DNA from: Nocardia sp.
Lineage (GTDB): Bacteria > Actinomycetota > Actinomycetes > Mycobacteriales > Mycobacteriaceae
Assembly (NCBI GenBank): GCA_013361595.1
Contig: JABFXT010000675.1
Span: 1-11,598, forward strand
Reading direction: 5' to 3'
Length of the DNA stretch: 11,598 nucleotides
Numbering within the stretch: position 1 is the stretch's first letter; each line of letters begins with the position of its first letter. A program made the translations under genes and the position numbers. The notes beneath the pieces are model-generated. The model saw nothing but the letters and a program-made list of their open reading frames with translations, had not been told where the DNA came from and did not search any database. This document shows positions 10,968-11,598 of the stretch, piece by piece.

Positions 10968-11598
10968 CGATCGTGTTCACTCTCGATTCCGACGAGCGGG
11001 CCATCCGCGATACCGCCCGGGATTTCGCCGACGAATATCTCGCGCCGCACGCCGTGGAATGGGACCAGGAGAAGCATTTCCCGGTGGATGTGCTGCGGAA
11101 ATCGGGTGCGGTGGGGCTCGGCGGTATCTATGTAAACGAGGAGTTCGGTGGATCCGGGCTGCGCCGGCTGGACGCGGTGCGGATCTTCGAACAGCTCGCT
11201 ACCGGGTGCCCGGCGGTGGCCGCCTACATCTCGATCCACAATATGGCGGCCTGGATGATCGACGCCTACGGTGACGACGACCAGCGCCGGCAGTGGCTGC
11301 CCGGGCTGACCGCCATGGAGAAGCTGGCCAGTTACGCGCTCACCGAACCGGGCGTGGGCTCCGATGCCGCCGCCATCACCACCCGGGCCGTGCGCGACGG
11401 CGAGGACTATGTGCTCAACGGGTCCAAGCAGTTCATCTCGGGTGCGGGTAGCAACGATCTGTACGTGATGATGGTCCGCACCCAGGACACCGGGGCGCGG
11501 GGTATCTCGACACTAGTCGTCCCGGCCGACACCCCCGGCCTGGAGAAGATCGTCCGCGATCTGCGGGTGCACCAGATCCTGGAGGGCACCAACGAGAT
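10964..11598 (+). CDS. Acyl-CoA dehydrogenase (isobutyryl-CoA dehydrogenase/FadE9-like), 3' partial, with apparent internal deletion
   Basis: The frame starts at ATG 10964 within the mmsA stop (ATGA, 4-base overlap) and runs off the window after 211 codons. Residues 1-120 are the N-terminal helical domain ([50 protein letters not shown]). Residues 121-190 begin the middle beta domain with the family signature [11 protein letters not shown] and KQFISGAG. Family members then continue with LSFG...KMGW and about 160 more residues. Here PADTPGL (ending L193) is followed at once by [18 protein letters not shown], which normally lies near residue 355. The catalytic glutamate of the EGT motif is kept (E207), but the rest of the beta domain and most of the C-terminal helices are missing. 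If real, the product probably cannot fold or bind FAD normally. An intact enzyme would oxidise isobutyryl-CoA to methacrylyl-CoA in valine degradation. mmsB-like genes may follow. Confidence 0.85.
   Translation, partial: [211 protein letters not shown]

Follow-up and report, generated by a model that had tools for sequence, protein, structure and literature searches.

An apparent in-frame loss in an isobutyryl-CoA dehydrogenase-type gene of a Nocardia draft genome most likely reflects an assembly gap with a misplaced contig tail

Bacterial genes of the acdH/FadE9 type are isobutyryl-CoA dehydrogenases of valine degradation. The solved structure closest to the protein described here is 1rx0, which we take to be human ACAD8; its chain A (1rx0_A) was the best solved match to the open reading frame (ORF) under study, with 238.6 bits versus 148 for the next. 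The ORF lies at the right end of the window, which at 11,598 nucleotides is the whole of contig C293 (G000:C293:1-11598) of a draft genome (G000) comprising 5,181,338 bases in 908 contigs and estimated as 78.2% complete. The locus resembles the isobutyryl-CoA dehydrogenases both in this structural match and in its valine-pathway gene neighbours, mmsA, a hydrolase and a dehydrogenase. The sole difference is that the gene as assembled on C293 is missing 157 codons from its middle and is cut off short of its stop codon. From its sequence and setting, the gene is thus assigned to the isobutyryl-CoA-dehydrogenase type, inside a valine-degradation operon.

The truncated gene, its domains and its neighbours

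The ORF extends over positions 10964-11596 of the forward strand and encodes 211 aa with no stop before the contig end. Its translation runs from ADTPGL directly into the C-terminal motif at residue 193, and the contig ends 63 bases after the join. A first-pass annotation of this DNA had described an uninterrupted frame, the passage from ADTPGL to the C-terminal motif and a GGCCTG at 11537-11542, and a second reading of the ORF and sequence found all three correct. The in-frame gap of about 160 residues that it had estimated against the family was measured against related loci as exactly 471 bases, or 157 codons, of the acyl-CoA dehydrogenase gene. As the end of the window is a contig end, the observed loss is a property of the assembly.

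Three segments can be distinguished, all on the forward strand. The genuine 5′ part of the gene, about codons 1-191, occupies 10964..11535 and is identified by its collinearity with an intact gene of 386 aa in a related genome (G097), by Pfam and by dN/dS. The join at 11536..11545 reads CGGCCTGGAG, and the contig equals a second contig of the same assembly, C336, from 11536 on while differing from it before that base. The displaced 63-base tail, 11536..11598, originates further 3′ in this gene and includes the codon of Glu-207, presumably the catalytic glutamate of acyl-CoA dehydrogenases.

The domain content follows this division. The N-terminal α domain is present, with Pfam PF02771 (Acyl-CoA_dh_N) covering residues 10-119 (profile 3-113 of 113, 117.5 bits). 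The middle β domain, PF02770 (Acyl-CoA_dh_M), is incomplete, its match over residues 124-194 breaking off at the join, where the profile has reached position 74 of 97. A Pfam search of the 211-aa ORF did not find the C-terminal acyl-CoA dehydrogenase domain; of this α domain C293 holds 19 residues, while a 52-codon end with its stop stands on C336. The alignment with an isobutyryl-CoA dehydrogenase that had been proposed as a check gave a concordant picture: 1rx0_A matches both flanks and its internal stretch is skipped, ORF residues 7-194 pairing with chain residues 19-206 and residues 193-211 with 362-380, the second piece being weak alone (i-Evalue 5.9). The best named relative in GTDB genomes is a Nocardia flavorosea protein, 92% over residues 4-194. 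Searched against NCBIfam, the intact 386-aa protein of G097 reached no model at its cut-off. The present part of the gene displays a dN/dS of 0.099-0.116 versus five relatives (one of which, L010, was aligned with two small gaps) and contains no stop codon. Gene decay, offered earlier as one alternative, is not supported by these values, which indicate purifying selection.

Upstream, on the same strand, lies mmsA (9369..10967), encoding a CoA-acylating methylmalonate-semialdehyde dehydrogenase (TIGR01722, 656.8 bits, cut-off 448.5), whose end overlaps the start of the acyl-CoA dehydrogenase gene by ATGA. The mechanical ORF start of mmsA is 9369, but its domain match covers only residue 39 onward, which probably places the true start near 9468. 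On C336 the end of the acyl-CoA dehydrogenase gene is followed by genes for a 3-hydroxyisobutyryl-CoA hydrolase and then a 3-hydroxyisobutyrate dehydrogenase. We take these two genes and mmsA to be valine-pathway neighbours, and C336 to carry the expected continuation of the operon. Elsewhere in the window, positions 1-885 hold an acyltransferase (E2) gene of a 2-oxoacid dehydrogenase complex, cut by the left contig end, with a best NCBIfam model at 204.2 bits, under its cut-off. The stretch 3267-6841 holds a gene for an SNF2-type helicase (best model the SCO1167/SCO6262 family, 679.4 bits, under the cut-off of 1200) and, directly after it, a 254-aa ORF, presumably a SWIM zinc-finger protein.

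A second copy of the tail and the spacing in relatives

The 63 bases at C293:11536-11598 are identical to C336:43-105 (63/63). A genuine deletion would leave the sequence absent and the flanks contiguous; on C336, the shared 63 bases are directly preceded by 42 bases from the "deleted" segment, which with the next base encode 14 of its residues. From its base 2, C336 carries the 52 codons of the C-terminus of the gene, then the stop. Comparison with G097, where the corresponding locus is termed L120, places both contigs on one stretch: C293 6959-11544 is collinear with L120 3766-8349 and C336 2-2146 corresponds to L120 8771-10915. The part of C293 before the tail ends at L120:8340-8349, and the tail itself maps to L120:8812-8874, inside the range of C336. 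Thus C293 and C336 appear to be neighbours with some 420-430 bases unassembled between them, the tail of C293 duplicating part of C336 in the wrong place.

The comparison with sister genomes suggested by the first-pass annotation was made by searching window positions 11440-11598 against 150 congeneric genomes, G000 included, of which 142 gave a match. Among the matches listed, none outside G000 spanned the join, and 471 extra bases separated the two arms in 33/33 congeneric genomes with both arms listed, these being genomes other than G000 in which the second arm started at query base 97. The roughly 480 extra bases named beforehand as the mark of an assembly error were therefore found in congeneric genomes, as 471 bases, and in part in the same assembly, as the 42 bases on C336. 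Similarly, the two sites lay 471 bases apart in all five of the seven tested loci that fitted the search pattern, although L121 and L029 among these five seem to come from one genome; a wider set of ten loci gave seven readable at this same spacing and three unmatched by the pattern. With the 471-base spacing in all measured loci and genomes, the observation exceeds chance.

The gene was recovered in one tblastn piece in 98 of 99 related loci (19 from one search and 80 of 585 from another). The exception, L037, belongs to a Rhodococcus sp. PMG_259 draft metagenome-assembled genome, which likewise shows an internal loss in this gene and in which the hydrolase gene is broken too. There, the frame is changed and the segment matching G097 protein residues 223-294 is gone. 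Since this loss lies in another place and is not in frame, L037 was rejected as a second case of the C293 join; its hydrolase gene lacks a piece, and the breaks in the two genes (L037:5001-6688) may likewise stem from faulty assembly.

Homologues naturally without the segment were sought among protein relatives with lengths of 0.55-1.75 times 211 aa, a range that favours shortened proteins. Among the 120 listed of 5645 none was found, and the best local alignment passed window residue 202 in 0 of the 120; the close homologues naturally without the segment that the first-pass annotation had envisaged are not represented there. With the patterns used, motif spacing could be measured in 27 of the 120 (78 lacked the C-terminal motif and 15 the β motif). 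The shortest spacing among these 27 was 71 versus about 11 expected for this join, and it fell below the usual 168 residues in 11 and below 120 in three, so that shortened forms of the enzyme do occur among predicted proteins.

Origin of the join and the competing explanations

These observations leave little doubt in our reading that the loss is an assembly artefact: the gene is most likely whole in the sequenced cells, and some 420-430 of its bases fall into a gap of the draft. Of the alternatives raised earlier, a collapsed assembly near a contig end fits best, given the 63-base tail repeated on C336. A chimeric read or a short-overlap mis-join would have switched between two sites of the gene with a probable shared run of up to ten bases, CGGCCTGGAG. 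Through this switch the end of C293 would have jumped the gap and landed in the wrong place, the contig stopping 63 bases on.

The shared run is known by inference from relatives because the sequence truly following site 1 is not assembled. In N. flavorosea and others site 1 reads CCCCGGCCTGGAGGT, and in G097 CCCGGTCTGGAAGT; the ten bases of the join are read at site 1 of N. flavorosea and at site 2 of C336. CTGGAG occurs at both sites in four of the seven readable loci, and the run shared in register amounts to 0, 3, 5, 6, 6, 6 and 6 bases in these seven (three more were unmatched by the pattern). Site 1 of G000 would thus also have carried some or all of the ten bases at 11536..11545, and the run shared by its two sites may reach ten bases. 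Both sites encode GL followed by E in the same phase in most relatives read, which would explain why the faulty join stayed open. The short repeat at the join that the first-pass annotation had proposed is therefore plausible, by inference from these relatives, but the deletion it was thought to have mediated is not supported.

A comparable product is described for multiple displacement amplification. In PMC5372508, more than 95% of the overlaps in chimeras were 3-13 nt long with a peak at 7, and the joined segments lay mainly within 5 knt of one another. The likeness is that two nearby segments are joined at a short shared run, in the present case a probable one; that analysis was confined to inverted chimeras and left direct ones out.

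A real deletion allele, produced by short-repeat slippage in part of the population, could mimic this pattern if C293 ended on the deleted and C336 started on the intact allele. The join is in frame and falls at two sites of similar sequence in relatives, and both contexts of the 63-base stretch occur within one assembly. What makes a minority allele of this kind possible is that a search of the G000 assembly for the gene middle (N. flavorosea query positions 574-993), with 40 of 197 candidates scored, gave only weaker matches of 64-78% and not the middle itself. Nevertheless, if the allele were common C293 should continue into the hydrolase gene, yet it ends 63 bases past the join. The allele is also absent from relatives among the matches listed, and its product would have an incomplete middle domain and little of the C-terminal one. 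We consider a minority deletion allele very unlikely because C293 ends so soon after the join and the present part of the gene shows normal constraint. Slightly more doubtful still is the fuller version in which a 471-base deletion allele, arisen by slippage between short GL(E)-coding repeats, segregates beside an intact one in the Nocardia-like population and its half-size enzyme keeps the catalytic loop, perhaps as a non-enzymatic binder of CoA esters.

A deletion fixed in the strain, whether it left a decaying gene or a true mini acyl-CoA dehydrogenase, would accord with the open frame, with the retention of the presumed catalytic glutamate and its motif and with the missing middle noted above, but it is scarcely credible when on C336 the same 63 bases are joined to 42 of the "deleted" ones and lead on to the downstream genes expected, when the present part is stop-free and under purifying selection, and when no homologue with the join appears among the 120 listed of 5645. 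The earlier picture of a mini-protein that keeps its catalytic glutamate is accordingly unsupported, the same tail following "deleted" bases on C336, and under the artefact no mini-protein is left to explain. An equally slight chance attaches to two gene copies, a deleted one on C293 and a whole one on C336. G000 does contain 41 acyl-CoA dehydrogenase matches, but C336 matches the tail at 100% identity, against 64-83% over short stretches for the remaining matches in the genome, and C293 and C336 jointly reproduce one collinear stretch of G097. Nor did the scored candidates include any further close copy, which makes a second copy unlikely.

Other contig ends and meaning of the finding

The start of C293 overlaps C245 by 132 bases with one mismatch, on opposite strands, and the end of C336 overlaps C53 by 117 bases, again with one mismatch. 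At three other contig starts of G000 no comparable chimeric tail was found, one of them starting in a dispersed repeat; the fault is therefore not claimed as general in this assembly. Contig C200 starts with a stretch, G000:C200:1-131 (L128), that matches 21 other G000 contigs at 82-99% over 51-131 bases; this dispersed short repeat family may help to break up the assembly.

A simple check can be drawn from this locus for any in-frame loss near a contig end, namely to search the other contigs of the assembly for its tail. Applied here, it drops a false "mini-enzyme" from consideration, and the feature is most likely an ordinary valine-degradation gene that the assembly interrupts with a gap and ends with a misplaced tail.
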